From the NCBI GenBank assembly GCA_030154085.1, contig JASKKR010000016.1, positions 1 to 45,592 on the forward strand: a stretch of 45,592 bases of DNA, read 5' to 3'. Every line of letters starts with the position of its first letter. Positions within the stretch are counted from its first letter, which is position 1. The stretch is from Candidatus Cloacimonadota bacterium. GTDB taxonomy: Bacteria > Cloacimonadota > Cloacimonadia > Cloacimonadales > Cloacimonadaceae. The notes under the pieces are model-generated. The model saw nothing but the letters and a program-made list of their open reading frames with translations. It ran no database searches and was not told the DNA's origin. The position numbers and the translations under genes are program-made. Below are positions 9,677-40,665 of the stretch, piece by piece.

Positions 9677-9714
9677 CCAAGGATTATTCGTGTATTTTGC
9701 TAACTGATATAAAC

Positions 9715-9738
9715 TGACACCCAAAGCTGCAAGTTGTG
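9715..9738 (+). repeat. Left terminal repeat L1 of the transposon
   Basis: The sequence has the form TGACAC-N6-CTGCAAGTTGTG. Against the right terminus it differs only at positions 6, 8, 12 and 19 of 24. It begins 38 bases after the SdpI-like gene. Confidence 0.72.
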
Positions 9739-9841
9739 ACACAAGGGGAAAGTGGGGATAAGGCTTTGATTGGTGTTTAGTTGCGATGGACTGGCTTTGG
9801 AAATGTCCAAGCGCCTATTTGGACGTTTTTGGACTGTTTGC

Positions 9842-9861
9842 TGACACTATTACTGCAAATT
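9842..9861 (+). repeat. Left internal end site L2
   Basis: TGACACTATTACTGCAAATT repeats the L1 pattern (TGACAC, then 5 instead of 6 bases, then CTGCAA and RTT) in the same orientation 127 bp further in. It is a likely second transposase site. Between and next to the two sites lie TGTCCAAGCG (9804-9813) and its inverted variant (9869-9878), a different motif family. Confidence 0.55.
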
Positions 9862-9917
9862 AGCGAGGCGTTTGGACATGCTTTGGAAAGAGCAGTTGGA
9901 AAAACAGAACTTTGAAA

Positions 9918-10664
9918 TTAGAAAAAGCGCAATTGGAGTGCGATTGTGCCGATCAGGAAAGCTCCGTAATTCCAATCTGAGTCTAAAACAAGAACCGGGT
10001 AGTCTATATTAAATGGTTGGAGGATAATCTGTTGCCTGTGGTGGTCGATCTGCACCTTCTTGATGGTGAGACCATCGTCAGTTCTTACAACTGCAATTTT
10101 ACCATCGGCATTTTCCCAACTCTGATCGCTTTTGATGACCACGATGTCCTGATGCTGGATCACAGGCTCCATGCTCTGTCCATTTACTTGAAAGACAGTG
10201 TATTGCTTGGGGTTGCCGGTCAGGAATGAGATCGGCAACTGAATCTGACCGACTTGACTCCACTCGTCTCTGATCTCCATCGGAGGTCCGGCAGCTATTT
10301 CACCGACTATGGGATAGGTGATAGATCGAGTGAGATCGAAGTCCTGATTGTTGATAGGATGTAGGATTGGAGAGATGATGGATGGGTTTGGACTGTTTGG
10401 ATTAGTTGGTGCTTGATTGGATTGGAGAAGCTCTTGAAACTCATCTTTGGCATACATAGAACCGCTTCCCGTAAAGAGCCAGTGGATATTGATCTTATCC
10501 TTGGAGAGTGCTTCTAAGAACTCAGGATCGGGATATCTCTCATTCAGCTTGTATCGGGAAAGCGAGGCGCGGGAGATGCCATACTTATTGGCAAACTGGT
10601 AATCCTTGAGTCGCATTGCCTTAATCACCAAGCTAAGGCGTTGTCCGATAGTCGGTTTATTCAT
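9918..10664 (-). CDS. Self-cleaving XRE/S24 repressor (LexA/CI type) of the transposon
   Basis: The protein has about 248 residues. The N-terminal half has a helix-turn-helix (YQFANKYGISRASLSRYK). The C-terminal half is an S24 LexA-like peptidase, with an Ala-Gly cleavage site in GEIAAGPP, catalytic Ser164 in VNGQSMEP and Lys202 in GLTIKKV, 38 residues apart as in LexA and UmuD. Such repressors cut themselves when RecA filaments form on damaged DNA. The start MNKPT at 10664 has GGAG at six to seven bases; an in-frame ATG lies slightly upstream. The gene is divergent from the transposase operon, in the same place as the Mu c repressor, so it most likely represses transposition (inference). Confidence 0.87.
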   Translation of the reverse strand: MNKPTIGQRLSLVIKAMRLKDYQFANKYGISRASLSRYKLNERYPDPEFLEALSKDKINIHWLFTGSGSMYAKDEFQELLQSNQAPTNPNSPNPSIISPILHPINNQDFDLTRSITYPIVGEIAAGPPMEIRDEWSQVGQIQLPISFLTGNPKQYTVFQVNGQSMEPVIQHQDIVVIKSDQSWENADGKIAVVRTDDGLTIKKVQIDHHRQQIILQPFNIDYPVLVLDSDWNYGAFLIGTIALQLRFF

Positions 10665-10690
10665 CGTGGTCTCCATATAGTAACTTTGGC

Positions 10691-10761
10691 ATTGACTATA
10701 TCCGCATGGCTGCAAGATTAGTTCCAGATGCCATTCTGCTGCAAGGCGGATTGGAGTCAAT
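10691..10761. promoter_or_regulatory. Probable operator between repressor and transposase operon
   Basis: A long interrupted inverted repeat is visible: ATTGACT (10691-10697) and ATCCGC (10700-10705) are mirrored by GCGGAT (10746-10751) and AGTCAAT (10755-10761). Inside it, CTGCAAG occurs twice (10710-10716, 10739-10745), the same core as the transposon end sites. A divergent intergenic position next to a repressor gene supports an operator role. Confidence 0.55.
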
Positions 10762-10905
10762 ACTAAAGTGTATAGTGTGACCCAGGTGGATTATAAAGTA
10801 TTGCCGGATAATGCGTAAGAAAGATGGCAAACTTGCAGAAAGGACTTCCCAAGGTTCTGCTCTTGTGGTTGTTAGCACCCTACTAATACATAAGAGAGGT
10901 GTAGA

Positions 10906-11478
10906 ATGACTACCAAGAAACAACGCCATGCGGAAGTGCAGAAACGAGCTTGTAATGGCAATGTCCAAGCGGGTACCCCTGTCCAAGCGGGGGTAGGCAT
11001 GAGGCTTAACTCATTGATAACTATGATGAGAAGCCAAAATGACCAAGCGCTTAACCGCATTTTTCAAGATTCCCGACTGAAATGTCCAAGCGGGTCACAG
11101 TTTTTGAAGGATTTGGACATGGACATGAAAGTCGATTTTATCTGGTTTCCCATTGATAGAGTAGCCATGCTGATGGACAAGAATCTGAAGACGATCAGAA
11201 GAATGGTGGATGCCGGAAAGCTGACTGCACTCAAACATCAGATACCGACCAAGAACGGAGCCACGATCAAGACCTTTGTGCTGGCAACGGAAGAGATCAT
11301 TCAGGCTGAGTATGATAGATTCAGAGATAGCCTGCGTAAGCCGGAGCTTTACTTTGAGGAAGTGATCGATCTGGGCGAGCATAGCTATCCCAGTGTCTTC
11401 CTGGTCTATTATGATAATGGTAATGAATTGGTCGTAAAGAGCAGCGAGAAAGCAGGAGGTTCAGATGTTTCCCTATAG
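10906..11478 (+). CDS. Small DNA-binding protein with excisionase/MerR-like helix-turn-helix
   Basis: The frame gives 190 residues, but the useful part is the last 119. IDRVAMLMDKNLKTIRRMVD followed by a basic wing resembles excisionase or MerR-type winged helices, a fold also used by the enhancer-binding domain of MuA. The first 71 residues are coded by DNA that carries a cluster of TGTCCAAGCG sites, which accounts for the odd repeated VQAG peptide. The ATG at 10906 has GAGGTG at good spacing; the ATG at 11119 has GAAGGA at good spacing and may be the real start. The gene overlaps the transposase gene by 14 bases, so the two are translationally coupled. Confidence 0.6.
   Translation: MTTKKQRHAEVQKRACNGNVQAGTPVQAGVGMRLNSLITMMRSQNDQALNRIFQDSRLKCPSGSQFLKDLDMDMKVDFIWFPIDRVAMLMDKNLKTIRRMVDAGKLTALKHQIPTKNGATIKTFVLATEEIIQAEYDRFRDSLRKPELYFEEVIDLGEHSYPSVFLVYYDNGNELVVKSSEKAGGSDVSL
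10962..11092 (+). repeat. Cluster of TGTCCAAGCG sites (possible transposition enhancer or operator)
   Basis: TGTCCAAGCG occurs at 10962-10971, 10980-10989 and 11083-11092, with a one-mismatch copy TGACCAAGCG at 11040-11049. A related copy lies at 9804-9813 and an inverted variant at 9869-9878 near the left end. The cluster sits about 1.3 kb from the left terminus, comparable to the internal activating sequence of phage Mu (about 1 kb in). It could bind the excisionase-like protein, the repressor or both. Confidence 0.6.
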
Positions 11479-14059
11479 TGGCAGACCAACTGAGGAGTTC
11501 TTGAGAGAGTATCGTAATAAGCTGAATGAACTGCAAGAATTGATGGAGAGCCAAGGACTGAAGCTTGAAATCAAGAGTGGTGGCAGATGCATAGTGGTAC
11601 CGGAGGTAAAGGCTAATCTCAGCAAGGTTAGTGGGAATGGTAACGGTGGTTGTGATGGGAATAGCAGAAACAACAGTGGAGATGCCACCGATGCCGACAA
11701 CAGCTTCATGCTCGCCTACAGCCAGCAGTATAATGCCAAAGCAGATAGTACAGAAGATAACCTCGAGTCTGAGACGGTCTATGAGACCTATGAAGACTAT
11801 CTGGACTTTGAACGTAAGCTTACTCTGATCCATGAAGCCCGGGACAATGATGTGGTAATCGACTTCTCCAGTGAGTTTCTCGATCTGGCTCCGGTGGAAG
11901 AGGAGAGACTGCTCTTCAAAGATGAGGCTCAGCTCTATGGCAGATTCTGCCAGGAGGTGTTCCGCAGATTGCATGGAGTCGATTCAAAGACATTAGCTTG
12001 GAAACGCATCACCAGTGACTATAACACCAAGAGACTGGTACCGGAACTCTACAATCTCAAAGGACCCCGAAAAGAGAGGGCACTGCGAGAGTGGCTCAAT
12101 ATCTACCTGGAGAATAAGCTGGATATGTATGCCCTGATCCACAAGAGCAAAGGCAAGTATAAAGAACGAAAGATCACTTTTCAGGAACAGCACTACCTTC
12201 TGCATCTGCTGCTCAATCCTAACCGGATCAAAATCGGCTCTGCCATCACCAACCTCAAGCAGATGAGCAGAAACAAAGTAATAGAATCAGAGACCAATGA
12301 ACGGACGCTCAGACGCTGGTGCGAGGAATGGGCAGCCAGGCACCCGGCAGAGTGGCATCAAGCCAGAGATGGCAGCAAGTTCGTCTCAGAGAATCTCATC
12401 AAGAGCATTATGAGAGATGACAGCACTCTGGAAGTGGGACAGGTCTGGGTGGCTGATGGACATACCCTCTCCTTCGATATCCTCAATCCCCAAACCGGCA
12501 GAGCCCAACGCATGACCATGATCATGGTGATGGACTGGGCAAGCAGGTATCCGGTGGGAGCATCTTTAGCCTTTACCGAAGATAGCCAGCATATCCTCAC
12601 CGCCTTCCGCAATGGCTTCATCAACTGCGCTCAGATTGCCGATAACAATAGCGGAACCATGGCTGTGCTACCCAAGTATGTCTATCTGGATAACGGCAAA
12701 GCCTTCCGAGCCAAACTCTTTCATGAGAGATGGGAAGAGCATGATCTGAACAAGGAACTGGGCGGTATCTTCCCCCGGCTCAATATCGGAGTGCGATTCG
12801 CCGAGAGCTACAATGCCAAGGCAAAGATCATCGAACGCTTCTTCAAGACCTTCCAGGAGCAGTTTGAGAGGTTCATTACGACTTTCAGAGGAGCATCGAT
12901 AGACGATAAGCCCTCTGTCCTGCATCGAAACGAGGTATGGGCTAAGAAGCTCTATGCCGGTAAGCCACCCACCATTGAAGAGACGATGCAGATGATCGCC
13001 TTCTATGTGAGGTTTTGTTATGGCGAGACACCGCATACCTCACTCAACAGACGCACTCCCTATGAAGTCTTCAGTGCTGCCAGGATAGCTGAGAGTCGGC
13101 AGATTGAGATCTCCAGGCTCAACTTCCTGATGATGGCAATGGAACGCAAGAACATCCGCGCGGAAGGCATCAGGCTGGATAAGAAGGTCTACTGGCACCG
13201 GGAACTGGTTAACCATGTGGGACAGCCTTGCATCATCAGATTCGATTACAGCGATGCCAGGTGGATCGTGGTCTATGACAAGAACGATGTCTTCATCTGC
13301 CAGGCAGCCCTCCGCAAGGCACAGCATCCCTTCATCGAGGTCTCGATGGATCAGGCGGTCTCGCATAAGGAGCTGAACAAGGAATACAAAGAGATCAAGG
13401 GACTCCGACGGGAGAAAGAACGCAGTGCCAAGAAGTGGGTGGTCAACTCGCAGAAGGCAGTTGATAAGATACTGAGCAACTCCCCATCTAAGCAGGAGAA
13501 GCTTGAATATCAGGGTGCCAGAGCACTTTTCAATAGTCCTCCCATGCTGGAAGCACCACCTAAGGATAGTGATGAGATCATCGAGGAAATGACCAGAAAG
13601 ATGATGATGAGGCAGCCCATACATCCGGATATGCTGAGTCCGGAAGAACGGGAGAAGCTTAATGCGGAAGAGAAGGAGAGACTGGCAGAGCAGGAGAGGG
13701 ATAGGATAATCCTAAAGGAAATCAAAGAATCGTTCGACCGTATAGGACTCGAATATCAGACAAGTAATGATAAACCAGCCATGGAGTTCGCGATAGGCTT
13801 CAGCCAAACAGCCAGAGAGTACTACAAAGCTCAACAAAGATCCCAAGCAGAACAAGAAGCATCAGATGAAGCACCCACTGCCACCGCAACAAAAGATGCC
13901 ACAGGTATAGAATCTGAAGATCATGATCCAGCGGAAAAGATCTCCATACCAGCAGAAGGGCCTGATGATAAGCAAGCACAGGATGACACCAAGACTGGGC
14001 AGTCACCCTTCGCACACCTCTCCAGAGCGGAACTCCTCAAGCGCATCGGGATAAACTAA
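11465..14059 (+). CDS. DDE transposase of MuA/TnsB type
   Basis: The chain of 864 residues catalyses strand cutting and joining at the transposon ends. The RNase H-like integrase core has Asp331 in VWVADGH, Asp409 in VYLDNGKAF and Glu457 in KAKIIERFF, giving a DD48E triad. A Mu-transposase-like beta-barrel follows (about 560-620). The tail (about 640-864) is rich in Glu, Gln, Lys and Ala and probably coiled or disordered; in MuA the C-terminal part contacts the ATPase partner MuB and ClpX, and the conserved-looking final FAHLSRAELLKRIGIN may play that role (inference). The start has an AGGAGG ribosome binding site and overlaps the previous gene. It is longer than MuA (663) and IS21 IstA (about 500). 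Confidence 0.9.
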   Translation: MFPYSGRPTEEFLREYRNKLNELQELMESQGLKLEIKSGGRCIVVPEVKANLSKVSGNGNGGCDGNSRNNSGDATDADNSFMLAYSQQYNAKADSTEDNLESETVYETYEDYLDFERKLTLIHEARDNDVVIDFSSEFLDLAPVEEERLLFKDEAQLYGRFCQEVFRRLHGVDSKTLAWKRITSDYNTKRLVPELYNLKGPRKERALREWLNIYLENKLDMYALIHKSKGKYKERKITFQEQHYLLHLLLNPNRIKIGSAITNLKQMSRNKVIESETNERTLRRWCEEWAARHPAEWHQARDGSKFVSENLIKSIMRDDSTLEVGQVWVADGHTLSFDILNPQTGRAQRMTMIMVMDWASRYPVGASLAFTEDSQHILTAFRNGFINCAQIADNNSGTMAVLPKYVYLDNGKAFRAKLFHERWEEHDLNKELGGIFPRLNIGVRFAESYNAKAKIIERFFKTFQEQFERFITTFRGASIDDKPSVLHRNEVWAKKLYAGKPPTIEETMQMIAFYVRFCYGETPHTSLNRRTPYEVFSAARIAESRQIEISRLNFLMMAMERKNIRAEGIRLDKKVYWHRELVNHVGQPCIIRFDYSDARWIVVYDKNDVFICQAALRKAQHPFIEVSMDQAVSHKELNKEYKEIKGLRREKERSAKKWVVNSQKAVDKILSNSPSKQEKLEYQGARALFNSPPMLEAPPKDSDEIIEEMTRKMMMRQPIHPDMLSPEEREKLNAEEKERLAEQERDRIILKEIKESFDRIGLEYQTSNDKPAMEFAIGFSQTAREYYKAQQRSQAEQEASDEAPTATATKDATGIESEDHDPAEKISIPAEGPDDKQAQDDTKTGQSPFAHLSRAELLKRIGIN

Positions 14060-14071
14060 TAGGAGGATTAC

Positions 14072-14782
14072 ATGAAACAGGGAACGCTCGTCAGAACTCA
14101 GAACGTGATAGCCGCAGATAAATGCATCGAATACCTGCTAACACGACCTAAGCTGGAGATGGTCGGACTTGGCTTGCTCTATGGCAGACCGGGACTGGGA
14201 AAGACCACTTATGCCAGTCGGATCGCTTTCAGTAAGGGCTATCTCTATCTCAGGCTGGAGGCAACTACCACTCCCAAAGCCTTTGCATCCAAGCTGCTCT
14301 TAGCCCTATACAAGAGATTTGGCATGGGAGAGTACATCCCCTACGGGACAGCTAATGACCTCTTCATGATGTGTATAACGCTTCTGGAGGATCACAAGGA
14401 TACGATCATAGTTGTTGATGAGATAGACTACGCCTTCCGGCATCCCCAGCTCTTAGGTGCGATCAGGGATATCGTGGATGTGACCACAGCGATTGTCATC
14501 CTGGTCGGGATGCAGAATGCCAAAGACCGGCTCAATCAGATCAACGAGTACTACTTCGATAGGTGCAACTTCTTCTATGAGTTCCAAGACCTGCCTAAGA
14601 AGGACATAGCCCAGTTATGTAGTGAGATTCTGGAGATCAAGTTCCATCCGGACATAGTCGACTATGTCCACTTCCACTCCTGTGGCAATGTTCGTAAAGC
14701 CATGAAGCTAATCCGCTCAGTGGAAGAGATAGGTAGATACAAGAATCTGGACATAGTATCCCAAGCCGATCTGGATGATTGA
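14072..14782 (+). CDS. AAA ATPase of MuB/TnsC type (transposition target selector)
   Basis: This 236-residue protein has Walker A GRPGLGKTT at about residues 38-46 and Walker B IIVVDEID at about 112-119, with the LVGMQNAKDRL sensor segment after it. MuB, TnsC, TniB and IstB form ATP-dependent filaments on target DNA and recruit the transposase; length and position directly after the transposase match that group. It lacks an obvious N-terminal DNA-binding extension like that of MuB. A 12-base gap separates it from the transposase, with AGGAGG before its ATG. The next gene follows after 7 bases. Confidence 0.85.
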   Translation: MKQGTLVRTQNVIAADKCIEYLLTRPKLEMVGLGLLYGRPGLGKTTYASRIAFSKGYLYLRLEATTTPKAFASKLLLALYKRFGMGEYIPYGTANDLFMMCITLLEDHKDTIIVVDEIDYAFRHPQLLGAIRDIVDVTTAIVILVGMQNAKDRLNQINEYYFDRCNFFYEFQDLPKKDIAQLCSEILEIKFHPDIVDYVHFHSCGNVRKAMKLIRSVEEIGRYKNLDIVSQADLDD

Positions 14783-14789
14783 GGTGATA

Positions 14790-15293
14790 ATGACGGACAA
14801 AGAACTGATCCTCAACTTCATCAATCAGTATGATCGCCCCTTCAATGCAGAACTGATATCCAAGCTGACCAGTGTAAGCATAGAAGCAACAGAAAAGCTA
14901 CTGCCCGAATTGCTCCAAAGCCAGGCAATCAAGCAGATTGAAGATAGTCCTCCAATTTACGTCCGAGCCAACCGCTTTCAAGCCAGGATTGGCTATCAGC
15001 ACTACAAGGGCTGGACTTTCAGCATAGCAGATGCCCACAGGCTACTGGACATCCTGGAACAAGGCAGATTCAAATCCATCCGAGAGATTGCTCAAGACAT
15101 AGGAAAATCAAGGCAATGGGTCTATATCTATCTGGAGGCACTGGCATCAATTGAAGTGGTTGATCTGAGGGGCTTCATATATGTGGTCATATCCCGCCAA
15201 AACGTGCCAAAAATCGGCAGAAAAGTCCAGAAAGGTATCTTGGGTCAACTCAGGAGTTTGAATAAGGCTGGGTGTTATAGATTAATCGAATAG
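14790..15293 (+). CDS. Double winged-helix protein of the transposition module
   Basis: The protein has 167 residues and appears to have two helix-turn-helix units: NAELISKLTSVSIEATEKLL (about residues 18-37) and SIREIAQDIGKSRQWVYIYL (about 95-114). The second ends in a short basic tail. The start at 14790 has GAGGTG at good spacing; a GTG or ATG slightly upstream overlaps the ATPase gene. Its place as last gene of the transposition operon suggests an accessory regulator or target-choice factor, as TniQ/TnsD or Mu early proteins are, but I see no TniQ zinc motifs. The function is unknown. Confidence 0.6.
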   Translation: MTDKELILNFINQYDRPFNAELISKLTSVSIEATEKLLPELLQSQAIKQIEDSPPIYVRANRFQARIGYQHYKGWTFSIADAHRLLDILEQGRFKSIREIAQDIGKSRQWVYIYLEALASIEVVDLRGFIYVVISRQNVPKIGRKVQKGILGQLRSLNKAGCYRLIE

Positions 15294-15313: not shown

Positions 15314-16864
15314 CTATGGCTTCTCCTGCTTTAGATGATTCTGCATCGCCTGAAGCGTTTTGAAACCGAGTTTCCTAGCAGCTTGGCTTTGGCTTGTGCT
15401 TGTTTCGATGCTTTCCCGAATGGCTTCTAGCTTGATCTTTTGTATGTCATTCATTAGATTACACTTCTCTTCAATACTTACTCTTAGCTGCTCGGAAATA
15501 GGGAATCTGATACACGAAGTATTGTTCTCCGTAGGTCGCTTTTTGTAGGACTCTCGTGCTAATGTATCTGCTGTTATCAATGGATCGGAACTAAGTATGC
15601 AGCAACGCTTTACAACAGAAATAAGCTCTCGTACATTCCCCTCCCATTGATGGCTCATAATGAATTCATAAGCGGTTTTATCGAAGCTCTTTGCTTGGTA
15701 CACTATAGAGAATTTTGCTTTAGAGGCTAAATCTGATAATTCTTTGTTAGTGTCTTCTAAGCATTTGTCTGCAATAATTACCACATCTTTTCCACGACTT
15801 CTGAGGGGGGGTAACTCAATGATACCTTCGGATAAACGGAAAAACAAATCGAGTCTTAGCTTATCAGGACTATTTGTGGCAGACACCAATCTCACATCTA
15901 CGCTCTCCCCTTTATCACTACCTATGGGTTTTACTATGCCATCCTCCAATACTCTTAGAAGCTTTGCTTGTAGATTATGAGACAACTCACCTATTTCATC
16001 TAAAAACAGAATTCCTTTATGAGCCTGTTTAAACAGACCAAGTCTATCTTCTTTTGCGTCAGTGAATGAACCCTTAATATGACCAAACAACTCAGACTCT
16101 GCCAATGTGTCGGGCAGGTTTGCGCAATTGAAGCTGAAAAATCTATTATTATCCCGAGCTGAGGCATCCCTGTATAATTGAGCAAAAAGCTCTTTACCTG
16201 TACCGCTTTCCCCTGTGATAAGAACGTTACGATCAAACATGGCATATTTACGAACATCATTAATCGCAGATTTTATCGCCTCGCATTCCCCGATAATCTC
16301 TTTCCCTCTAACATCACCATATAGCACTTGTCTTTTCATTTGAGTGTCAGCAGGTAGTTGTTTTTGTAGTACGTCAAAGCTGATCGAAAATGGAAAGTTT
16401 ACCTCTTCCACATTTGATGTTTTTCTCGGAGTATCAGTCCATGTTTGAAGTAGGGTTGCATCATATTGAGTCCTGCCAAGTATTATAAATGAGACCGTGA
16501 TGGCATTAGTTCCAGAAGATGTGTTGAAGTAAAGTGCTGTCGCTTTGCGTTTTGTTGCAAGAATTTTAGCAACCTCATCACTCATTAGTTTATGCATCAC
16601 AGTAATATCTGATGTCACAAGATCGTCTTGCATTGCAATGGGATATACTGTGCAGTTATACTTTTCTTTGATTTTATTGAGATAACGCCTCAGGTTCAAC
16701 TCATAGCGATCTATATAGGAGTACTGGTAGAAAGCATATACTTCATCTATCGAATGATTGCCCTTAGCCAGTATAGTTTCAATAGGGCCATAAGGTTCTA
16801 CCTGCCTTGTTGCGCTTTCACAATCATGTTTCCCAATCCAACTGATTAATAAGTTCATACTCAC
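15314..16864 (-). CDS. Sigma54-dependent activator with CARF-like sensor domain (RtcR-like)
   Basis: The protein has 516 residues. Residues 1-160 start with MNLLISWIGKHDC and contain ALYFNTSSGTNAITVSFIIL, which looks like the CARF fold of Csx1/Csm6 and RtcR that binds cyclic oligoadenylate or RNA-end signals. An AAA+ bacterial enhancer-binding domain follows, with Walker A GESGTGKE, Walker B GILFLDEIGE and arginine-rich sensor text ELPPLRSRGKD. The C-terminus has a Fis-like helix-turn-helix (SQSQAARKLGFKTLQAM). The sigma54-contact loop reads GSFTDA instead of GAFTGA, so coupling to sigma54 may be altered. The gene converges with the transposition operon and diverges from the HNH cassette, which is its likely target. 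I found no well-spaced -24/-12 promoter there. Confidence 0.82.
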   Translation of the reverse strand: MSMNLLISWIGKHDCESATRQVEPYGPIETILAKGNHSIDEVYAFYQYSYIDRYELNLRRYLNKIKEKYNCTVYPIAMQDDLVTSDITVMHKLMSDEVAKILATKRKATALYFNTSSGTNAITVSFIILGRTQYDATLLQTWTDTPRKTSNVEEVNFPFSISFDVLQKQLPADTQMKRQVLYGDVRGKEIIGECEAIKSAINDVRKYAMFDRNVLITGESGTGKELFAQLYRDASARDNNRFFSFNCANLPDTLAESELFGHIKGSFTDAKEDRLGLFKQAHKGILFLDEIGELSHNLQAKLLRVLEDGIVKPIGSDKGESVDVRLVSATNSPDKLRLDLFFRLSEGIIELPPLRSRGKDVVIIADKCLEDTNKELSDLASKAKFSIVYQAKSFDKTAYEFIMSHQWEGNVRELISVVKRCCILSSDPLITADTLARESYKKRPTENNTSCIRFPISEQLRVSIEEKCNLMNDIQKIKLEAIRESIETSTSQSQAARKLGFKTLQAMQNHLKQEKP

Positions 16865-24429: not shown

Positions 24430-27400
24430 ATGAAAATCGCGGTTAATCAAATCATTTCCAGTCCCCTCTTCAACGAACCCATGAGGGTTGTAACCATTAC
24501 TCCTGGGGGCAACGAAGTATTTGCCTTAGGCTTGGTAGGGACTAAGAGCCAAACCTTCAGACAGGTCAATCTTACTGTCTCCCAGATTGAAGATCTTGAA
24601 ATCATAGATAGCGCATACACATACGCTGGGAATGCCAATCTCCTCAGGCTCGGGTTGCAAGCCTATATGCTTGGCATCGCATACGAGTTCGACCCCTATT
24701 TTGGACTATCAATATCCCGGGTCGACCCCCTACCCCATCAGCTTGAAGCAGTATATGATTACTTTCTCAAACTTGCCAGGATAAGGTTTCTATTAGCTGA
24801 TGATGCGGGAGCCGGAAAGACTATTATGGCTGGGTTATTGATCAAAGAGCTTAAACTTCGCGGTTTAGCTGATAGAATTCTGATAGTATGTCCATCTAAC
24901 TTATCGTTCCAGTGGCAACGCGAACTCTTGGAAAAATTCGACGAGAAATTCACCGTGCTCAAGGGCTCTAATATCCGCAACCAATTCGGCTCGAACCAGT
25001 GGCTGGAGCATAATAGGATCATTACTTCGTTGGATTTAGCAAAACGGGAAGACATCCTACCCGGCCTAAAACAATCTCATTGGGATCTGGTGATCGTTGA
25101 CGAAGCACACAGGATGTCTTGCTCCACAGGTGGGAAAACTGCCAGATATCAGCTCGGAGAGTACTTGCGAGACATTACGGATCATTTTGTTCTCTTGACC
25201 GCCACACCGCACAAGGGAGATCCCGAGAACTTCACTTACTTCCTGCAGCTTCTGGATAAGGACGTTTTCGCTGATGTAAAGTCTATCCGCCATGCCATGG
25301 AAAACCAAAGAGCTCCATTTTACCTGCGCAGAACCAAGGAAGCCATGGTCTATTTTCCAGAGAGAGACAATGCCGGAAACTGGCTGCAAGCTAAAATATT
25401 CACCAAGAGGATAACCCAGACTATTGCCTTCCAGATAGAAGGTGCGGAATTTGAACTCTACAGAAACATCACCAACTACGTTAAACGACAAAGCGCTTTG
25501 GCTGCCGCAGATGGTAGCAATCCAAGAGCAAAGGCCATCGGCTTCCTTATGTCCATGTATCAAAGGAGATTGGCTTCCAGCACCTTTGCCATGCGAAAGA
25601 GCTTGATAAACAGGGCAAATCGCCTTGAAGATGCCTTGAAGGATGCCTATAAACTGGCTAATGAAGCACCTCCATCAATTCCGGATGAAGAAGAATGGGA
25701 AGAGATGGAGGAGTATGAAAGAGAGAAGCTGGAGCAAATCTTGGAAGCGATGTCCCTGGTTCAGAATAAAGAACTGGTGAAGGCCGAGATTGCCGATCTA
25801 CGGGCTTTTGCCAAGGAAGCAGAAGCAGTTGAACAAGCCAACCAGGAAGCAAAACTGGCAAAGCTTAGGTTCCTGCTCCAACAAGAGGGATTCTTTGAGC
25901 ATAGAGATCGCCGTCTCTTGATCTTCACCGAGTTCAAGGATACCCTCTATTACTTGGAGGAAAAGCTCAAGTCCTGGGGCTTTGCGGTTGGCTGCATCCA
26001 TGGCAGCATGAAACCAGGTTCTCGTAATGAGCCCGGGACCAGGCTTCACTCAGAGCAGATGTTCAGAGAAGGGCAGATCCAGATCCTGCTCGCTACAGAA
26101 GCTGCCGGAGAAGGCATCAATCTCCAAGTCTGTAACATCATGTTCAATTACGACATCCCATGGAACCCCAACCGTCTGGAACAGAGGATGGGACGTATCC
26201 ACCGTTATGGACAGAAGAAGGATTGCCTGATCTTCAACTTCGTGGCTGAAAATACCATTGAGGGCATGGTTCTGAAGAAGCTGCTGGAAAAACTCCAAAA
26301 TATCCGGGATGCATTGGATGATGATGCCGTATTCAATGTTGTAGGCGAGGTTATGCCTTCTGATCAGATTGAGCGCATATTAAGAGATTATTATGCAGGG
26401 AAGCTGGGAGATGCTGACCTGGAACTCAGGATTCTGCAAAACGTAGATGAAGACCGCTTCCGGGCAATCTGCCAGAATGCCTTGGAAGGACTGGCATCCA
26501 AGAAGCTGAATCTTAGCATGCTCATTGAGCGCAGAGCCCTCGCCCAGGAAAGAAGAGTAGTACCCGAGACCATCCACAGATTCATCAATGAAACTGCTAA
26601 AATTGCAAGTTTCACAATCAAGGATCATCCCAGCCTAGCACATAGCTTTGATCTTGGTAAAACTCCCGCGCATCTGAAGTCATACGAATCGGAGCGGGAT
26701 TGGAAGTTACCTGCCCTGGCCAACCAATATCCCCGCTGCACTACAGACAGAACCACTTCAGAGAAACATAATCTGGAGTGGGTGACTCCCGGTCATCCTT
26801 TGTTTGAGGCTCTCAGACGCTTTACAGAGAGTAAGGCAAGAAAGGAGCTTGGCAGCGGTGCCGCCTACTACTCACTGCAACATTCAGAGCCAGTAAGGTT
26901 GGATTTTTACCGGGCCAGAATAGTGGATGGCTTGGGCATCGTAATCCATGAGCGCCTTTTCGTGGTAGAAATTGCTGAGTATAAAGAGCCGATCTTGCGA
27001 GAACCCACCATAATCGGAGATTTTATAGCTGCAGAATCAGAGATTGAACTGCCAGCAGTTGCATTCTCTGAGGAAGCCCTCAATTGGCTAAATGATAATG
27101 CCTTCATGCCTTTCCTGAATGAAATCAAAGCAGAACGGGAAGATGAGATAAAGCGGGTTGAGAAACACGTTGAACTTTCCCTAACGGAGATCATCGGTAA
27201 AGCAGATCAGGAAATCGGTAAGCTGGAGGATGAGATAAAACTAGGGGTCGCCGGAGCCGAAGGTCGCTTGGCAATAGCTGAAAACCACCAGGCCAATATG
27301 ATCGCCCGCCGGGAGAAAAGAAGAAAAGAGCTTCAACAACAGAAGTCACTCACCTTGCAGGGCGTTGAACGTATCACCAGTATTGTGGTGCTTCCTCACC

Positions 27401-27828
27401 CCGAAGCCCAGTCCGATTCCTTGAAGAATCTGAAGCCAAATTATGAAACTGAGGCAATTGCCATGAAAGTGGTTATGGAATATGAAGAATCCCAAGGCAG
27501 AAAGGTCTTTGATGTACACGAGAAAAACTTGGGATACGATATCACCAGCCTTGATGTATCCTCTGGAGAACTGCGGCTTATTGAGGTCAAAGGGATTGGG
27601 GCTGAATCCGGCACCATTATCCTTACTCCTAACGAAAGAAGAGTTGCGGAAGATAGACCGGATTGTTTCTGGCTTTATGTGGTAACCAACTGCAACAGTG
27701 CGCCCCAACTTCAATCTCCAATACTAAACCCAGCACAGTATCAATGGAATGAAGTGAAGAAAGTACAGCATTATACGATAAGCACGGCGAAGATAGTCGA
27801 AGGTAATAGGAATGGCACTAGGATTTAA
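24430..27828 (+). CDS. SNF2-family helicase with C-terminal DUF3883
   Basis: This is a 1132-residue superfamily 2 DNA translocase. Its motifs are PLPHQLEAVYDYF (Q-like), Walker A ADDAGAGKTI near 125, VDEAHRMS near 224, LLTATPHKG, then the second lobe with LLIFTEFKDT, LLATEAAGEGINLQ and NRLEQRMGRIHRYGQ. A Glu-rich helical part (about 900-1000) leads to a DUF3883 domain (KNLGYDITS, LRLIEVKG, near 1020-1090), related to nuclease-like folds and common in defence helicases such as DISARM DrmD. The stop overlaps the nuclease gene by 17 bases. Codon choice and base composition are more GC-rich than in the next two genes, so this block may have a different origin. Confidence 0.88.
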   Translation: MKIAVNQIISSPLFNEPMRVVTITPGGNEVFALGLVGTKSQTFRQVNLTVSQIEDLEIIDSAYTYAGNANLLRLGLQAYMLGIAYEFDPYFGLSISRVDPLPHQLEAVYDYFLKLARIRFLLADDAGAGKTIMAGLLIKELKLRGLADRILIVCPSNLSFQWQRELLEKFDEKFTVLKGSNIRNQFGSNQWLEHNRIITSLDLAKREDILPGLKQSHWDLVIVDEAHRMSCSTGGKTARYQLGEYLRDITDHFVLLTATPHKGDPENFTYFLQLLDKDVFADVKSIRHAMENQRAPFYLRRTKEAMVYFPERDNAGNWLQAKIFTKRITQTIAFQIEGAEFELYRNITNYVKRQSALAAADGSNPRAKAIGFLMSMYQRRLASSTFAMRKSLINRANRLEDALKDAYKLANEAPPSIPDEEEWEEMEEYEREKLEQILEAMSLVQNKELVKAEIADLRAFAKEAEAVEQANQEAKLAKLRFLLQQEGFFEHRDRRLLIFTEFKDTLYYLEEKLKSWGFAVGCIHGSMKPGSRNEPGTRLHSEQMFREGQIQILLATEAAGEGINLQVCNIMFNYDIPWNPNRLEQRMGRIHRYGQKKDCLIFNFVAENTIEGMVLKKLLEKLQNIRDALDDDAVFNVVGEVMPSDQIERILRDYYAGKLGDADLELRILQNVDEDRFRAICQNALEGLASKKLNLSMLIERRALAQERRVVPETIHRFINETAKIASFTIKDHPSLAHSFDLGKTPAHLKSYESERDWKLPALANQYPRCTTDRTTSEKHNLEWVTPGHPLFEALRRFTESKARKELGSGAAYYSLQHSEPVRLDFYRARIVDGLGIVIHERLFVVEIAEYKEPILREPTIIGDFIAAESEIELPAVAFSEEALNWLNDNAFMPFLNEIKAEREDEIKRVEKHVELSLTEIIGKADQEIGKLEDEIKLGVAGAEGRLAIAENHQANMIARREKRRKELQQQKSLTLQGVERITSIVVLPHPEAQSDSLKNLKPNYETEAIAMKVVMEYEESQGRKVFDVHEKNLGYDITSLDVSSGELRLIEVKGIGAESGTIILTPNERRVAEDRPDCFWLYVVTNCNSAPQLQSPILNPAQYQWNEVKKVQHYTISTAKIVEGNRNGTRI

Positions 27829-28773: not shown

Positions 28774-30714
28774 ATGCCATGGTATAATAACCTATTAGAT
28801 AATCAACGTGAAGCAGCCAGTTGCGATTGTGACAGAGTTGTGCTATTAGCGGGCCCTGGTACCGGGAAAACGCTAACGTTAACCAGGAGAGTCTGCTACT
28901 TATTAGAGGTGCAAAACGTTGACCCCAGGAACATTTGTGTAATTACGTTTTCCCGAGCTGCAGCAGCTGAACTAAGAACAAGAATTACCAAAGAATTGGG
29001 AGAAACATCGATACCCAAGACATCAACCCTCCATTCATTTGCTTTAAGTCAATTGCTTAGGTTAACAAAGTACAATAACAACTTACCTATGCCGATCAGG
29101 ATTGCAGATGATTGGGAAGAAAGATACATAGTGCTTGAAGACCTGAAAAGGCAACTAAGTATTCCCAAGGTTTCTGATGTGAATGATCTGTTGAATCAAA
29201 TGTCCTCTGACTGGCAAAGCCTTACAGCGGATGAGCAGGAATGGGAAAACCGTTTCCCAAATCCTCGATTCATTGGAGCCTGGCGAGAGCATCGGCAAGT
29301 TTACGCATACACACTAAGATCAGAATTAGTATACCAATTAAAACACACAATTCAGCAGAACCCACAAATAATTGACAATATTGGTTTCGGGTACCTCCTT
29401 GTTGACGAGTACCAAGACCTTAACAGGTGTGACCTTGCAGTTATTAAATTCCTCTCGGAGGCAGGTATTCGGCTTTTTGTTTCCGGAGATGACGACCAAA
29501 GTATATATGGGTTTCGCAAAGCTCATCCAATGGGAATCAGAAGGTTTACAGTAGATTACCAGCAATCTGAATCTAAGAATCTGAACATTTGTAAACGATG
29601 CGATCAGAACATACTAGACTTCAGCTTGTTCGTTGCAAGACAAGACCCCCTAAGGCTTGATAAAGTTATCGTATCTGACAGCACGAGAACAGCAGACATC
29701 CGTGTGCTGAGATTTGATAATCAAATCTCTGAAGCGGAGGGTATCTCACGGTTATGTAGTTACTTAATTAATCACGAAGGCATACAAGCGCATGACATAC
29801 TAATCCTGCTAAGATCTAACAAGAATAATTGTTTTTCAAACATCATTGCTAATAGTCTTCTTGATCATGGCATATCCGTAAAAACCCAGGAAACGGAATC
29901 AAGCGTCTTTGATGATACAGGGGGACGTAGGCTATTATCTTACCTGAGGCTTATCGTTAACCCAACAGATGAGCTTTCAATGAGATCTATAATACAAACA
30001 ACCCAAGGTATAGGTGCAGGTGCAATTGATGCTATCTATCGCATATGCCAAGAGAGAAATGTTAGATTTTGCCAATCCTTGGTTTTGATAGCCCAACAAC
30101 CATCAATACTAACGAGGTGGGGAAATAGAATCAAGCTTGCGTTTGAAAGTATACATGTGAATCTAGCTCGATATAATCAACTATATGATCCTTCATGTAT
30201 TACAACCGCCGAACTTCAAAATCTGATTTCAATCATTTGTATCGATCTTGACCTGCAGGAGACTGAGCAAGTTCAAATCTTGAACTGGTTTCAAAACTAT
30301 ATTGACGCTTCTGATGATGATTTATTAAGGATAGACGATATCTTAAGGGAAAAAGACACCTCACTCGAGAATGCCGAAGTCGTCTTTGAAAAAGGCAAGG
30401 TTCATATAATGTCAATGCATAAAGCTAAAGGCCTGACCGCCGAAGCAGTTATAATACCAGCATGCGAAGATGAGCATATACCTGGACGGAATACTGAAAT
30501 TGAATCCATGAAAGAAGAAATGCGCTTATTGTACGTATCTTTGACGCGCGCAAAGCATTATTTATACCTGACCTATTGTAATAGGAGAACTGATAGCCAA
30601 TGTTATGCAGGTAGTAATTTAGGTCGGACTCAACGAACTTTATCACGGTTTCTTGCAGATGCTCCTGTCTCACCTACTGACGGTACACAATTCACAAGGA
30701 GTTTACCTAATTAA
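28774..30714 (+). CDS. UvrD/PcrA-like superfamily 1 helicase
   Basis: This is a 646-residue DNA helicase with Walker A LAGPGTGKT near 26, motif Ia VITFSRAAAAELRTR, motif II LLVDEYQD near 209, motif III VSGDDDQSIYGFR, motif V VHIMSMHKAKGLTAEAV and motif VI LLYVSLTRAK. UvrD-like helicases with a partner nuclease are frequent in defence loci (for example Gabija GajB, AbiJ-type and Zorya-linked genes), but here the partner would be the Mrr-like protein upstream. It is shorter than UvrD (720) and lacks the usual C-terminal Tudor-like tail. An AGGTGG ribosome binding site precedes ATG. The next gene begins 2 bases after its stop. Confidence 0.87.
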   Translation: MPWYNNLLDNQREAASCDCDRVVLLAGPGTGKTLTLTRRVCYLLEVQNVDPRNICVITFSRAAAAELRTRITKELGETSIPKTSTLHSFALSQLLRLTKYNNNLPMPIRIADDWEERYIVLEDLKRQLSIPKVSDVNDLLNQMSSDWQSLTADEQEWENRFPNPRFIGAWREHRQVYAYTLRSELVYQLKHTIQQNPQIIDNIGFGYLLVDEYQDLNRCDLAVIKFLSEAGIRLFVSGDDDQSIYGFRKAHPMGIRRFTVDYQQSESKNLNICKRCDQNILDFSLFVARQDPLRLDKVIVSDSTRTADIRVLRFDNQISEAEGISRLCSYLINHEGIQAHDILILLRSNKNNCFSNIIANSLLDHGISVKTQETESSVFDDTGGRRLLSYLRLIVNPTDELSMRSIIQTTQGIGAGAIDAIYRICQERNVRFCQSLVLIAQQPSILTRWGNRIKLAFESIHVNLARYNQLYDPSCITTAELQNLISIICIDLDLQETEQVQILNWFQNYIDASDDDLLRIDDILREKDTSLENAEVVFEKGKVHIMSMHKAKGLTAEAVIIPACEDEHIPGRNTEIESMKEEMRLLYVSLTRAKHYLYLTYCNRRTDSQCYAGSNLGRTQRTLSRFLADAPVSPTDGTQFTRSLPN

Positions 30715-30715
30715 T

Positions 30716-33688
30716 ATGATTCAAAAAGAATGTAAACGACTCGCAGAAGTAGATTTTCCGATTGCCGCAGTTTCAAAACACGCTGTCCGAGAGAAGTCTA
30801 TCCATCATGGTCATCCCAGTACTCTCCATCTTTGGTGGGCAAGGCGTCCTCTTGCTTCGAGCCGGGCGATGCTCATGGCTCTACTATTGCCAGATCCTTG
30901 TGATCCCTACTGCCCCGGTGCCTTCAAAGAAAAAGCCAGGAAATTACTTCCTTCTTTGTGTGGGACCATCGGTGAAACCGACTATGATCTGCAACGTAAG
31001 CTACTGCATTTCATAGCTGATTTTGCCAACTGGGATAACGCGCATAGAAAGGAATACCTGGAACTTAGCAGGGCTTTGATCAAAGCAGCCCATCCGGAGG
31101 AAACACCTTTGGTGGTAGATCCCTTTGCCGGAGGAGGCAGCATACCTTTGGAAGCACTCAGAATCGGCTGCGATGCTTTTGCAAGTGACTTGAATCCGGT
31201 TGCCTGCCTGATCCTGAAAGTAATGCTTGAAGACATCCCCAAAAGCGGTCCTGAGTTGATAGATGAACTAAAGACCGTTGGAGACAGAATTATCAAACAT
31301 GCAAAAGAAGAGCTTAGCAAATACTATCCCGATGATCCTGACGGCTCAAAACCGGTTGCCTATATCTGGGCAAGAACCGTACGCTGTGAATCTCCCGACT
31401 GCGGAGCAGAAATCCCTCTAATGCGCAGTTTCTGGCTATGCAATAAGGCAAAAAAGAAAGTAGCTTTGAAGCCAATAGTTAAGCGAATGGATGGAGATGC
31501 CCCATCCGTTGATTTTGAGATCTTTGAGCCAAAAAAGGAAAGCGAAGTACATGGACCTACAGTTGCTCGCGCCAAAGCTACTTGCCTTTGCTGCGGATCG
31601 GTTCTTCCTCCTGATCGGGTTCGATCTCAGCTAGCCAATCAAAATGGTGGTGCTGATGTAATCTTTAACGATAAAGGTGAGCGATCCGGTGGCGCAAGAC
31701 TCTTAGCGGTAATTACTATTAAGGAAAATTCAATCGGAAAGAATTATAGAATCTCGCAACATAAAGATTACAACGTGTTGATAAAAGCCCAAGATTCAAT
31801 AATGGCTATTTATAATCAGTGGAACGATAGTGGAAAAGGTGATGTTTGCCCCATTCCTTTCGAAGCTACTCCTAAAGGGGGTGGATCTGGCGCTGGAAGA
31901 GCCTTTTCTATTCATAGTTATGGGATTCTAAGATATAAAAACCTTTTTTCAAATAGACAATTACTAAGTTTGCTCACAGTTCGTAAGTTGATTGAAGCCG
32001 AGAATAGTGCAATCATACCTGATATGTTAGCTCTTTCTTTTACAAAAGGAGCGGATGGTAATAATGCACTTTGTAGATGGATGCCAGGATACGAGAGTCC
32101 TGTGAATCTCTTCTCTAGACAAGCCATTCCAATAGTGTGGGATTTTTGTGAGTCATCACCAGAGTCAAGATCTAGGGGCGTTTTTCTTTCTTCTCTTGAT
32201 AGTCTGATTGAAATAATAAAGAACTACTCGTCAGATAAGTCTGGACAGGTGCAACAAGCCGATGCTTGTTGCTCGCCTCTACCATCTGATTCTGCTGACT
32301 TGTTCTTTACCGATCCGCCGTACTATGATGCCATTCCGTACTCTGATTTATCAGACTTCTTCTTTGTTTGGTTAAAGAGACTTTTGCCCAATCATCCTCT
32401 CCTAAAAGACCCTTATAACACATCAAATGATCTCACACCAAAGGATAGAGAAATTGTCCAAGATGAAACTCGATCATACGATAATCACGTAAAAAACCGA
32501 GAGTTCTTTGAGAATATGATGGCAAAAGCTTTTGCAGAAGGCAGAAAAACACTTGCCGACCACGGTATAGGTTCAATAGTCTTTGCTCATAAATCCACGG
32601 AAGGATGGGAAGCACTACTCAATGGTATTACCAAAGGTGGATGGACTGTTACTGGTTCCTGGCCTATCGCAACAGAAATGGGAACTAGGCTAAGAGCCAG
32701 AGAATCTGCTGCACTCGCTACCAGCATACATCTTGTATGCCGTCCGCGACCAGACAATGCTGGGGTTGGAGATTGGTCTCATGTTCTGCAAGAGCTCCCT
32801 CAAAAGGTAGGTAAATGGATTGACCGTTTAGAAGCAGAGGGAGTGAGAGGGGCAGATCTGGTTTTCTCCTGCATAGGTCCTGCCTTGGAGATCTTCAGCC
32901 GTTACCGCAGGGTGGAAACTGCAGAAGGACAAGAAATAAGTATCGGTACCTATCTGGAAAAAGTGTGGGAAGTGGTAGGCAGGATAGCTCTTGAGCAAGT
33001 GCTGGGATCGGAAGAATCAATGGCAAGAAATGGCGCTACCGGAGCATTGGAAGAGGATGCCCGGCTTACTGCCCTATTCCTCTGGACGCTACAATCCTCT
33101 GATACCACATCTACTTCCACAAACGAAGAGATGGATGACGAATCAGAAGATGATGAGGACACTCCCAAGAAGGCTAAAGCCAAAGCCGGATTTTCTCTGG
33201 TCTATGATGTTGCCAGGCGCTTTGCGCAACCCCTGGGGATAGACTTGACTAAATGGGATAAACGAATCATAGACATCGATAAAGGCAGTGTGCGGCTGAT
33301 CCCCGTATGGGAAAGGGCAGGTACGCTGTTTGGCAGCGATAAGGTTTCGCGGGTCGATGCAACATTTGACGTCAAAGAACAGCTTGAGATATTTGAAGAA
33401 TATGCTTCAAAGCCACTGCCTAAGATCAAGGGCAAAAAAGTGAAACTATCGGGAGCTGAAGAAGCTCAACCGATCATGGTCACTACTCTGGACAAGGTAC
33501 ATGCGGCCATGCTCTTGCAAGACAATGGACAGACCAATGCCCTCAGGGCTTTGATTAAAAGTGAGATGGAGCGGGGACAGGATTTCCTACGCCTGGCTAA
33601 CTCATTATCAGCCCTTTACCCCAAGGGCTGTGATGAAAAGAGATTGGTCGATGCGATGCTCTTGAGCGTTAGGGGCATAACCAAGTAA
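30716..33688 (+). CDS. DUF1156-type adenine-specific DNA methylase with zinc ribbon
   Basis: The methylase has 990 residues. It starts with the DUF1156 signature (EVDFPIAAVSKHAVREKS, then HPSTLHLWWARRPLASSRAM). It has the SAM-binding motif VDPFAGGGSIPLEA near 135, Cys pairs that look like zinc ribbons (RCESPDCG near 225 and CLCCG near 310), and the catalytic DPPYYDAIPYSD near 531. The order FxGxG before DPPY marks a beta- or gamma-like N6-adenine class. The tail is acidic and then ATPase-contact-like. I start at 30716; an in-frame ATG at 30653 would lie inside the helicase gene. Bases 31690-32450, between the two motifs, are more AT-rich than the rest, which may mark an exchanged recognition region. 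Confidence 0.85.
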   Translation: MIQKECKRLAEVDFPIAAVSKHAVREKSIHHGHPSTLHLWWARRPLASSRAMLMALLLPDPCDPYCPGAFKEKARKLLPSLCGTIGETDYDLQRKLLHFIADFANWDNAHRKEYLELSRALIKAAHPEETPLVVDPFAGGGSIPLEALRIGCDAFASDLNPVACLILKVMLEDIPKSGPELIDELKTVGDRIIKHAKEELSKYYPDDPDGSKPVAYIWARTVRCESPDCGAEIPLMRSFWLCNKAKKKVALKPIVKRMDGDAPSVDFEIFEPKKESEVHGPTVARAKATCLCCGSVLPPDRVRSQLANQNGGADVIFNDKGERSGGARLLAVITIKENSIGKNYRISQHKDYNVLIKAQDSIMAIYNQWNDSGKGDVCPIPFEATPKGGGSGAGRAFSIHSYGILRYKNLFSNRQLLSLLTVRKLIEAENSAIIPDMLALSFTKGADGNNALCRWMPGYESPVNLFSRQAIPIVWDFCESSPESRSRGVFLSSLDSLIEIIKNYSSDKSGQVQQADACCSPLPSDSADLFFTDPPYYDAIPYSDLSDFFFVWLKRLLPNHPLLKDPYNTSNDLTPKDREIVQDETRSYDNHVKNREFFENMMAKAFAEGRKTLADHGIGSIVFAHKSTEGWEALLNGITKGGWTVTGSWPIATEMGTRLRARESAALATSIHLVCRPRPDNAGVGDWSHVLQELPQKVGKWIDRLEAEGVRGADLVFSCIGPALEIFSRYRRVETAEGQEISIGTYLEKVWEVVGRIALEQVLGSEESMARNGATGALEEDARLTALFLWTLQSSDTTSTSTNEEMDDESEDDEDTPKKAKAKAGFSLVYDVARRFAQPLGIDLTKWDKRIIDIDKGSVRLIPVWERAGTLFGSDKVSRVDATFDVKEQLEIFEEYASKPLPKIKGKKVKLSGAEEAQPIMVTTLDKVHAAMLLQDNGQTNALRALIKSEMERGQDFLRLANSLSALYPKGCDEKRLVDAMLLSVRGITK

Positions 33689-33776: not shown

Positions 33777-34751
33777 ATGGATGATTTGACACTAAAGACC
33801 AAAAGATATCTGGAAGATACCCTGGATGTGAGAGCGGAGATTCGCTCAATTGATCTATCTGCACAACTACCTTACTTCTACTCGGAACATTATCGATTTT
33901 ACGATCTTGATTTAAACGGGGTAAGCTACCTATTATGCGAGGGGAGGGATATCCTTGTGGCGAAACAGGTACGCACTCAGTTAACTGAGTTGGAAAGCCG
34001 GATAGGCAGGCAATCAATTTACTTGAATACTGAAATCAACGCCAATCTCAGACGTTCGCTGGTCGAGAATCGGGTGTCGTTCATTGTCCCCAATAATCAG
34101 ATCTACCTCCCCAAACTTGGGATTGTGTTCAATGAGCGTTATCGTAAAAACTTCAAGGCCACAGATCGCCTTAGCCCTGCCGCTCAAGTGATTCTGTTGC
34201 GAGCCATACTAAATCATGAGTATGACATGGTCACAGCTTCAGAATACGCAAAGAGGCTCAAATACACAGTTATGAGCGTATCAAGAGCATTTGCTGAACT
34301 GCAGGAGTATGGAATAGTTTCCAGGGAAGAGAATTGGAAGGAAAAGCCTTTTATGTGGCTTTTCAAAGGTAGAGAATTGTGGGATAAAGCCCTTCCATTC
34401 TTGATCAATCCTGTGCGTAGATCTATGTGGATTATGGATAATGGTCGATTACCTTACTGCTTGGCAGGGATATCAGCTCTTTCCAGATATAGCATGATCA
34501 ATGAAGATGATTTCAATACGTATGCTACTATTAGTAGTATCGCACAGAACAACTTGGACATAGTAGAGATAAGTCAAGATAGTCGACCAGCTGATAATGT
34601 TACTAAGATGCAAATCTGGAAATACAACCCTAAACTAATCTCAAGCGAAGACTGTGTTGATCGACTATCATTGTATCTGAGCATGAGAGACAGCAAAGAT
34701 GAAAGAATTCAGATATCTTTGGATGAGATGATGGCTGGTATAAGATGGTAA
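33777..34751 (+). CDS. AbiEi-like winged-helix antitoxin/transcription regulator
   Basis: The protein has 324 residues. A central winged helix (VILLRAILNHEYDMVTASEY, then KYTVMSVSRAFAELQEYGIV, about residues 140-185) resembles MarR-type DNA readers, and the C-terminal region (about 200-324) resembles the AbiEi C-terminal domain. The N-terminal 130 residues are of unclear fold. It lies just after the nested operator at 33704-33768 and overlaps the next gene (an AbiEii-like nucleotidyltransferase) by 7 bases. This layout is what type IV AbiE systems show. Its position inside a methylase-ATPase operon is unusual and could instead mean it regulates the whole island. Confidence 0.68.
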   Translation: MDDLTLKTKRYLEDTLDVRAEIRSIDLSAQLPYFYSEHYRFYDLDLNGVSYLLCEGRDILVAKQVRTQLTELESRIGRQSIYLNTEINANLRRSLVENRVSFIVPNNQIYLPKLGIVFNERYRKNFKATDRLSPAAQVILLRAILNHEYDMVTASEYAKRLKYTVMSVSRAFAELQEYGIVSREENWKEKPFMWLFKGRELWDKALPFLINPVRRSMWIMDNGRLPYCLAGISALSRYSMINEDDFNTYATISSIAQNNLDIVEISQDSRPADNVTKMQIWKYNPKLISSEDCVDRLSLYLSMRDSKDERIQISLDEMMAGIRW

Positions 34752-40094: not shown

Positions 40095-40134
40095 CATTAT
40101 AGTAAATCTGGTCTTGAGACAATTGCAGAAGTCA

Positions 40135-40166
40135 TGTCACAAATTGCAATTTTCGGTGATCTAAAT
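40135..40166 (+). repeat. Right internal end site R3
   Basis: The core TTGCAATTTTCGGTGATC begins at 40144, and the 23 bases 40144-40166 are identical to 307-329 in the array at the left edge of the window. TGTCACAAA precedes it at 40135 and recurs at 40178-40186. Its core matches R1 and R2 (TTGCARTTTTCG) in the same orientation, 96 bp before R2. Confidence 0.65.
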
Positions 40167-40236
40167 TGCAGGATTCTTGTCACAAACTACTCAAATTGTC
40201 TTGTAAAGGATGTCCTACGATGCATAAGGATGCGAC

Positions 40237-40278
40237 AGTTTGCAGTTTTCGCTGCACAATTTGCAGTTTTCGTTGTCA
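40237..40278 (+). repeat. Right terminal repeats R2 and R1 of the transposon
   Basis: TTTGCAGTTTTCG occurs at 40239-40251 and again at 40260-40272, exactly 21 bp apart. The outer copy ends in TTGTCA at 40278. Its reverse complement starts TGACAACGAAAACTGCAAAT and aligns with the left terminus. The 21-bp spacing equals that in the 282-323 repeats. Confidence 0.75.
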
Positions 40279-40665
40279 CGTTGCACAAAACCAGGATAGG
40301 GCAGACTTGATTAATTTTCGTTCTTAATGATATATGCTTGATATATGCTTACTATCTCCAGCAATTTGCTGGCTATCACAAGCGCATTGCTAGCAGAAGC
40401 TACGAGAAACAAAAACCATATGAAATGAGTTCTCTTGTCTAAATGCCGGGAGTTCACAGTCCAACAAAATCGACAAGCTTCTCTGGGTTCCATCCATGTT
40501 CGGGAATAGCTTAATAAATAATCACCTTATCTATACTTTCTTTAGAAGCAACCGATCTTCCCTCAACACGTGAGAAAAGAAAAATTATCCCTTTTTGCAT
40601 CAATAGCTTAGATCGGAGCCAACCTTTATCTATTCTAACTTAGAGGGACAAATAAAAGATTTCTC

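Follow-up and report, generated by a model that had tools for sequence, protein, structure and literature searches.

The window, meaning the whole 45,592-nucleotide stretch analyzed from a Candidatus Cloacimonadota bacterium (contig JASKKR010000016.1 of assembly GCA_030154085.1), contains a mobile element of about 31 kb with a leftward repressor gene near its left end, a rightward operon of transposition genes and a long block of defense genes. Its features are as follows, with coordinates and strand.

9708–40285, whole element, 30,578 bp, beginning TATAAACTGACACCC and ending ...GTTGTCACGTTGCA, delimited by the shared left edge and an empty site
9708–9860, left-end block, terminal TRTAAA...CACCCAAA plus a conserved non-coding stretch, from the alignment of transposon and prophage left ends
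9918–10664, minus strand, HTH and peptidase S24 repressor, 248 aa, from PF00717, the LexA profile, fold matches and dN/dS
10059–10061, minus strand, codon of catalytic Lys202, invariant in alignments
10173–10175, minus strand, codon of catalytic Ser164, invariant in alignments
10287–10292, minus strand, codons of the predicted cleavage bond Ala125-Gly126, invariant in alignments
10692–10697, plus strand, −35 box TTGACT of the predicted rightward (transposase operon) promoter, its distance to the start of the repressor gene being constant among relatives
10700–10714, plus strand, putative operator arm 1, ATCCGCATGGCTGCA, in the rightward promoter spacer, from the arm-pattern search and inverted-repeat test
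10737–10751, minus strand, putative operator arm 2, ATCCGCCTTGCAGCA, in the leftward promoter spacer, from the same search and test
10755–10760, minus strand, −35 box TTGACT of the predicted leftward (repressor) promoter, from its spacing to the opposing −35 box
10906–11478, plus strand, orfA, 190 aa, with no Pfam, PHROG or NCBIfam match
11465–14059, plus strand, TnsB/MuA-like DDE transposase (Mu-transpos_C 1.6e-14; PHROG 310 transposase 2.9e-71)
14072–14782, plus strand, TnsC/MuB-like AAA ATPase (AAA_22, TniB; PHROG 296 DNA transposition protein 7e-22)
14775–15293, plus strand, HTH protein, closing the conserved early block, with the same position in prophages and transposons
15314–16864, minus strand, RtcR-like sigma-54 activator of the cargo (Sigma54_activat 4e-53; NCBIfam RtcR 1.5e-76, below cut-off)
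16967–40094, plus strand, cargo block overall, from PADLOC, Pfam and NCBIfam
24430–27828, cargo, HmaA-like SNF2 helicase
30653–33688, cargo, HmaB-like DUF1156 methylase
35520–38324, cargo, DUF499 protein
38409–40094, cargo, GmrSD
40104–40285, right end, in which the terminal motif recurs (TGACAACGAAAACTGCAAATTG on the minus strand), from motif matches and the empty-site edge

A preliminary description of this DNA had taken the element to be mobile, which is borne out by an empty site, by copies at different sites and by a near-identical copy in another species. Eight copies begin TATAAACTGACACCC at different sites with unrelated flanks, and the terminal motif of the right end is also matched in the right ends of G040, G047, G033 and G005. 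The empty allele, in contig G025:C3, joins 9707 to 40286 between flanks that are 99.6–99.8% identical over ~6.4 kb; G025 is formally another genus, and such similarity suggests that the contig was mis-binned from a close strain or that the stretch was transferred, the join being informative in both cases. About 128 bp of target found only in the empty allele are missing at the window copy, which consequently has no target-site duplication; the complete copy in G040 has the 5-bp repeat CATAT on both sides. The genome of the window holds a second element of the same kind (L057, G000:C31:1-3010), which is truncated by the contig end and whose repressor is ~90% identical to that of the window. A contig of another species (G011) is 99.97% identical to the element over 11,067 bp while flanking-type host genes are ~86% identical, pointing to recent horizontal transfer; since both are metagenome bins, this calls for some caution. 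Among IMG/VR viral contigs there was no near-identical element of the window clade (best TnsC match 78%); named phage records gave no DNA match, and transposase relatives were all below 30% identity among the matches listed.

The same description spoke of the element being released. A Pfam scan of element genes of 84 aa or more detected no TnsA, TniQ/TnsD, TnsE or resolvase; with TnsA, TniQ and resolvase not found and a MuA-like transposase, excision is unlikely, and we infer that the element instead moves by copying, replicative transposition being the expected mode. Transposase and ATPase are both under purifying selection (dN/dS 0.14 and 0.04, respectively). Short repeats of the AATGTCCAAGCG type occur in the left end (9802–9880) and, in several copies, where orfA begins (10960–11095). 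The same layout is seen in L157–L192, with CACTGTGACA or CGGTGTGACA types outside the window element, and the left-end and orfA-start repeats change together between subfamilies. Perhaps they form an internal enhancer-like array for transposition.

The repressor gene starts at ATG 10664 (CAT on the plus strand at 10662–10664), preceded by GGAG, and this start is conserved in relatives; the listed open reading frame from TTG 10760, upstream of that ATG, is overlong. Counting from ATG 10664 reproduces the residue numbers given earlier (Ala125-Gly126, Ser164, Lys202). A Pfam scan of the protein returned PF00717 (peptidase S24) at 7.9e-18 and HTH_3 at 4e-4, just under the cut-off. It matches P22 C2 and LexA profiles, and a sequence profile retrieves LexA C-terminal domains at ~1e-9. 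Its AlphaFold2 model, of moderate confidence (mean pLDDT 72, linker 73–111 disordered), has LexA, lambda CI, 186 CI and UmuD' as best Foldseek matches, and several of the matched structures (LexA, lambda CI and UmuD among the nearest) were solved on RecA filaments. The gene is under purifying selection (dN/dS 0.10 across 12 close-clade copies). Its product is not the SOS master LexA of the host: the N-terminus is of the HTH_3 type with no LexA winged helix, and the NCBIfam lexA score is 42.6 bits against a cut-off of 111.

The cleavage site reported in the preliminary description holds, Ala125-Gly126, Ser164 and Lys202 being present and invariant both in a 12-row alignment and in 20 of 20 element and prophage repressors with identities down to ~31%. 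Three host paralogues and Escherichia coli LexA align at the same Ala, Gly, Ser and Lys columns. The spacing, described as that of LexA, is approximately so: Ala to Ser is 39 and Ser to Lys 38 residues here, the E. coli LexA values being 35 and 37. By architecture, scissile bond and dyad the repressor is of the LexA/CI-type self-cleaving class, with cleavage itself predicted from sequence. The Ala-Gly/Ser/Lys set is likewise retained by 24 of the 25 full-length repressors in IMG/VR viral contigs. The exception is the Mu-like viral contig L319, where Ile replaces the catalytic Ser (GHIMEP), which makes this protein a natural candidate for a non-cleavable repressor.

Across an inverted repeat at ~10683–10769 the repressor gene faces the orfA-TnsB-TnsC-HTH operon. 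The left half of the repeat scores 25 against the reverse complement of the right half, a value reached by 3 of 2000 dinucleotide shuffles and at 1 of 1979 window positions, so the repeat is non-random. It had been described as one long operator, a model that we dropped because relatives show two opposed promoters in its place. Each half is recognizable in distant relatives as a clear sigma-70-like promoter (e.g., TTGACC-N17-TATTAT rightward, the second promoter being on the other strand) with a palindrome in the spacer (e.g., TACCC-N4-GGGTA). The opposing −35 boxes are separated by 63–65 bp in most of the genome copies and in 23 of the 25 viral ones; with few exceptions, relatives keep this spacing as far out as 35% repressor identity. 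Compared with the prophages, the window clade has weaker −10 boxes, and its operators differ from theirs. Exact matches to the 15-bp arm pattern number two in the 1.95-Mb genome, both at this switch, and the repressor would bind at these arms. The inverted repeat is best described as two predicted promoters, opposed and overlapping, with a putative operator in each, on the scheme of a prophage switch. Because they overlap head-on, the repressor and transposase-operon promoters should exclude each other, as opposed promoters do in P2-type switches.

This resemblance to prophages extends beyond the switch. Mu-like prophages of Candidatus Cloacimonadota have the same kind of repressor, switch and left end as the element, the ~150-bp left end being conserved between prophages and transposons in alignment. 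The transposase tree pairs the window clade with two sister prophages (99/93), all within a larger prophage clade. With a MuA-type transposase and a MuB-type ATPase beside a left-end repressor, the element is Mu-like in its gene content. In distant relatives the early block continues into gp16-like, DUF3164, terminase and MuF genes, and the G020 prophage goes further, with endolysin, portal, head protease and tape measure genes. Genes for terminase, portal, head and tail are all absent from the window element. It descends from a transposable phage, has lost the virion genes and carries an anti-phage island, a prophage ancestry that is evident from the transposase tree, the shared early block and the left end and that the preliminary description had missed. 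The element L053 of G018 has its own, separate nested place in the transposase tree; along ~14 kb it has a DpdE-like helicase gene but none from phages. Some prophages have defense genes between MuF and endolysin (L050, L144 and L139): Gabija with a type I restriction-modification (R-M) system in G020, a type III R-M system in G006 and a type II methylase in G003.

The cargo is a defense island, as claimed, with HmaA- and HmaB-like proteins, DUF499, DUF1156, Mrr and GmrSD; it also encodes HNH_3 and large AAA proteins, the Mrr-like nuclease, a UvrD helicase and an AbiE-like pair. That pair, at 33777–35494, has weak AbiEii (0.007) and MarR-like matches and may represent a toxin-antitoxin module within the island. 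The gene for the RtcR-like activator is divergent from the defense operon, and the cargo may be expressed in response to a signal of its own; near this gene, no match to the sigma-54 (−24/−12) promoter consensus was found. Close relatives with the same core carry other cargo, namely Ssp genes (G040), a DrmD-like helicase with SIR2 (G033), BREX BrxC/PglZ with Drt1a (G019) or a TmtA-like gene (G009). In two members of the window clade, G047 (L046) and L160, Mrp/NifH-like metal-cluster genes (names read from sequence) replace the defense cargo, so defense is the commonest cargo and not the sole kind. Among related transposons, L170 and L182–L185 have no detected S24 repressor, and L170 carries apparent Zorya-type membrane proteins.

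The host has a RecA gene, and no SOS regulon could be recognized in it; almost none of the searched genomes of its family has classical LexA. Most genomes of the family encode an HTH-S24 protein with intact cleavage residues (L035 at G000:C1:191118-191840, near rplQ in the genome of the window; orthologues L104–L123), and many copies have a 13-bp palindrome, TWAGC-N3-GCTWA, inside the promoter of the gene, through which the protein appears to control itself. It is possibly the LexA substitute of the lineage, a role for which no regulon was found: the palindrome is not at recA or the umuD-like gene, and five of its 12 genome matches lie in a dispersed repeat. This intergenic repeat, in which the palindrome TTAGCCWGGCTAA is flanked by CCTACTTTTGCA-like sequence, occurs in contigs C10, C11, C30, C35 and C37 of G000. 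Control of the element by host LexA was rejected, classical LexA being missing and the operator of the host HTH-S24 protein not being at recA or the umuD-like gene.

With classical LexA missing almost throughout the family and the element's operator nowhere else in the genome, the proposed tie to the SOS response can amount at most to RecA-triggered cleavage. The tie stands insofar as the S24 architecture is that of mitomycin-inducible Mu-like phages; in the comparison of these phages all repressors were HTH plus S24, a type found in none of Mu, D108 and B3 (PMC8541194). It does not extend to membership of a known SOS regulon, and “SOS response” should be read narrowly here as predicted RecA-stimulated cleavage. 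For a Francisella S24 phage repressor, up-regulation by ciprofloxacin without LexA is reported, with a RecA route inferred (PMC13148647).

The locus is probably a phage-derived Mu-like transposon in which DNA damage would lead to cleavage of the repressor and so free transposition along with the defense cargo. In the quiet state the HTH-S24 repressor would occupy both operators, holding the orfA-TnsB-TnsC-HTH operon off and tuning its own synthesis. Upon DNA damage, RecA filaments would induce the repressor to cut itself at Ala125-Gly126 by means of the Ser164/Lys202 dyad, the rightward promoter would open, and TnsB and TnsC would copy the element, defense genes included, to new sites by replicative transposition. 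Damage-triggered derepression is the best reading because of the phage lineage and the intact cleavage machinery, and we word it conditionally because the hankyphage was not induced by mitomycin C and the host lineage lacks classical LexA.

The same switch might be relieved by an antirepressor, a host protease or random loss, with the S24 fold serving mainly for dimerization. The CI of phage 186, a near fold match, is indeed relieved by an antirepressor, but the dyad is missing from 186 CI itself. A host without classical LexA would also suit such a route, as would the hankyphage of Bacteroides, a transposable phage with a CI-like repressor that showed no response to mitomycin C or other inducers (PMC12135933). 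Dimerization alone needs neither the scissile bond nor the two catalytic residues, all invariant here while the linker varies, and we regard relief independent of damage as unlikely, though not far-fetched. Related prophages with a switch of this type abound in the bacterial family, as would fit an element that is largely immobile and keeps its repressor as immunity against related Mu-like phages; the purifying selection on transposase and ATPase, the near-identical copy in another species, the empty allele and operators unlike those of prophages make this improbable. That the repressor was recruited into the host damage regulon to replace LexA, missing in nearly all family members, has a parallel in the reported takeover by a captured phage repressor in Francisella (PMC13148647), but is very hard to credit given an operator pattern with no other exact genome match and a better candidate in the different HTH-S24 protein of most family members.

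The defense transposons may be satellites of their parent Mu-like phages, packaged by a co-resident phage that the same damage induces. This idea, which we consider doubtful, arises because the element keeps the phage left end, transposase sites included, and the damage switch without virion genes. The conserved non-coding block of the left end could hold a packaging signal. Two complete copies of ~31 kb (30.6 kb here and ~31.8 kb in G040) are close in size to many related viral contigs of ~32–36 kb, but the G047 copy measures only ~11 kb. Were it true, defense cargo would travel in particles of its own source phage group.

The locus reveals how transposable phages can become vehicles of bacterial immunity. 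The window clade and L053 of G018 make up at least two lineages that have retained transposition and the phage switch but are no longer viruses. Should the switch behave like that of inducible prophages, entire defense islands would be copied to new sites upon attack or DNA damage, predicting that immunity genes spread in bursts. In the literature searched, which was covered in part, no phage-derived transposon with such a switch and rotating defense cargo is described. Its components are already known, namely S24-repressed Mu-like phages, defense-carrying Tn7-like transposons and SOS-controlled integrative and conjugative elements (ICEs) with BREX. The view that a link between immunity cargo and damage-induced mobility is rarely described needs correcting, since SXT/R391 ICEs with the SetR repressor and BREX in hotspot 5 already join SOS mobility to defense (PMC4542580, PMC11580459). 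Like the window element, they have a CI-type repressor cleavable at Ala-Gly over their mobility and carry defense cargo, but they move by site-specific integration and conjugation and not by transposition, with no shared core genes seen; the genes of the element include no integrase or conjugation genes.

Opposed repressor and early promoters also form the mutually exclusive lysogeny switch of P2 and 186. These phages are of a different type, the P2 C repressor not being S24 and 186 being induced through its antirepressor. The HTH-S24 Mu-like phages such as Shewanella MuM16-1 likewise have a left-end repressor followed by a DDE transposase and an ATPase (PMC8541194), and the hankyphage similarly places a MuA homologue under a CI-like repressor but is a complete phage (PMC12135933). 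The Mu-like prophages of Cloacimonadota (G020, G027, G003 and G017) have, in addition to this arrangement, the same early gene order, switch geometry and left-end block; compared with them and with the HTH-S24 Mu-like phages, the window element has defense cargo in place of terminase, portal, head and tail genes. Assignment to the Tn7-like transposons was rejected, TnsA, TniQ and resolvase not being found in the Pfam scan of element genes of 84 aa or more. Defense-carrying Tn7-like transposons (PMC8649781) have in common with the element a TnsB/TnsC-type core and exchangeable defense cargo, but unlike them the window element lies under a phage-type S24 repressor and has phages as its closest kin.
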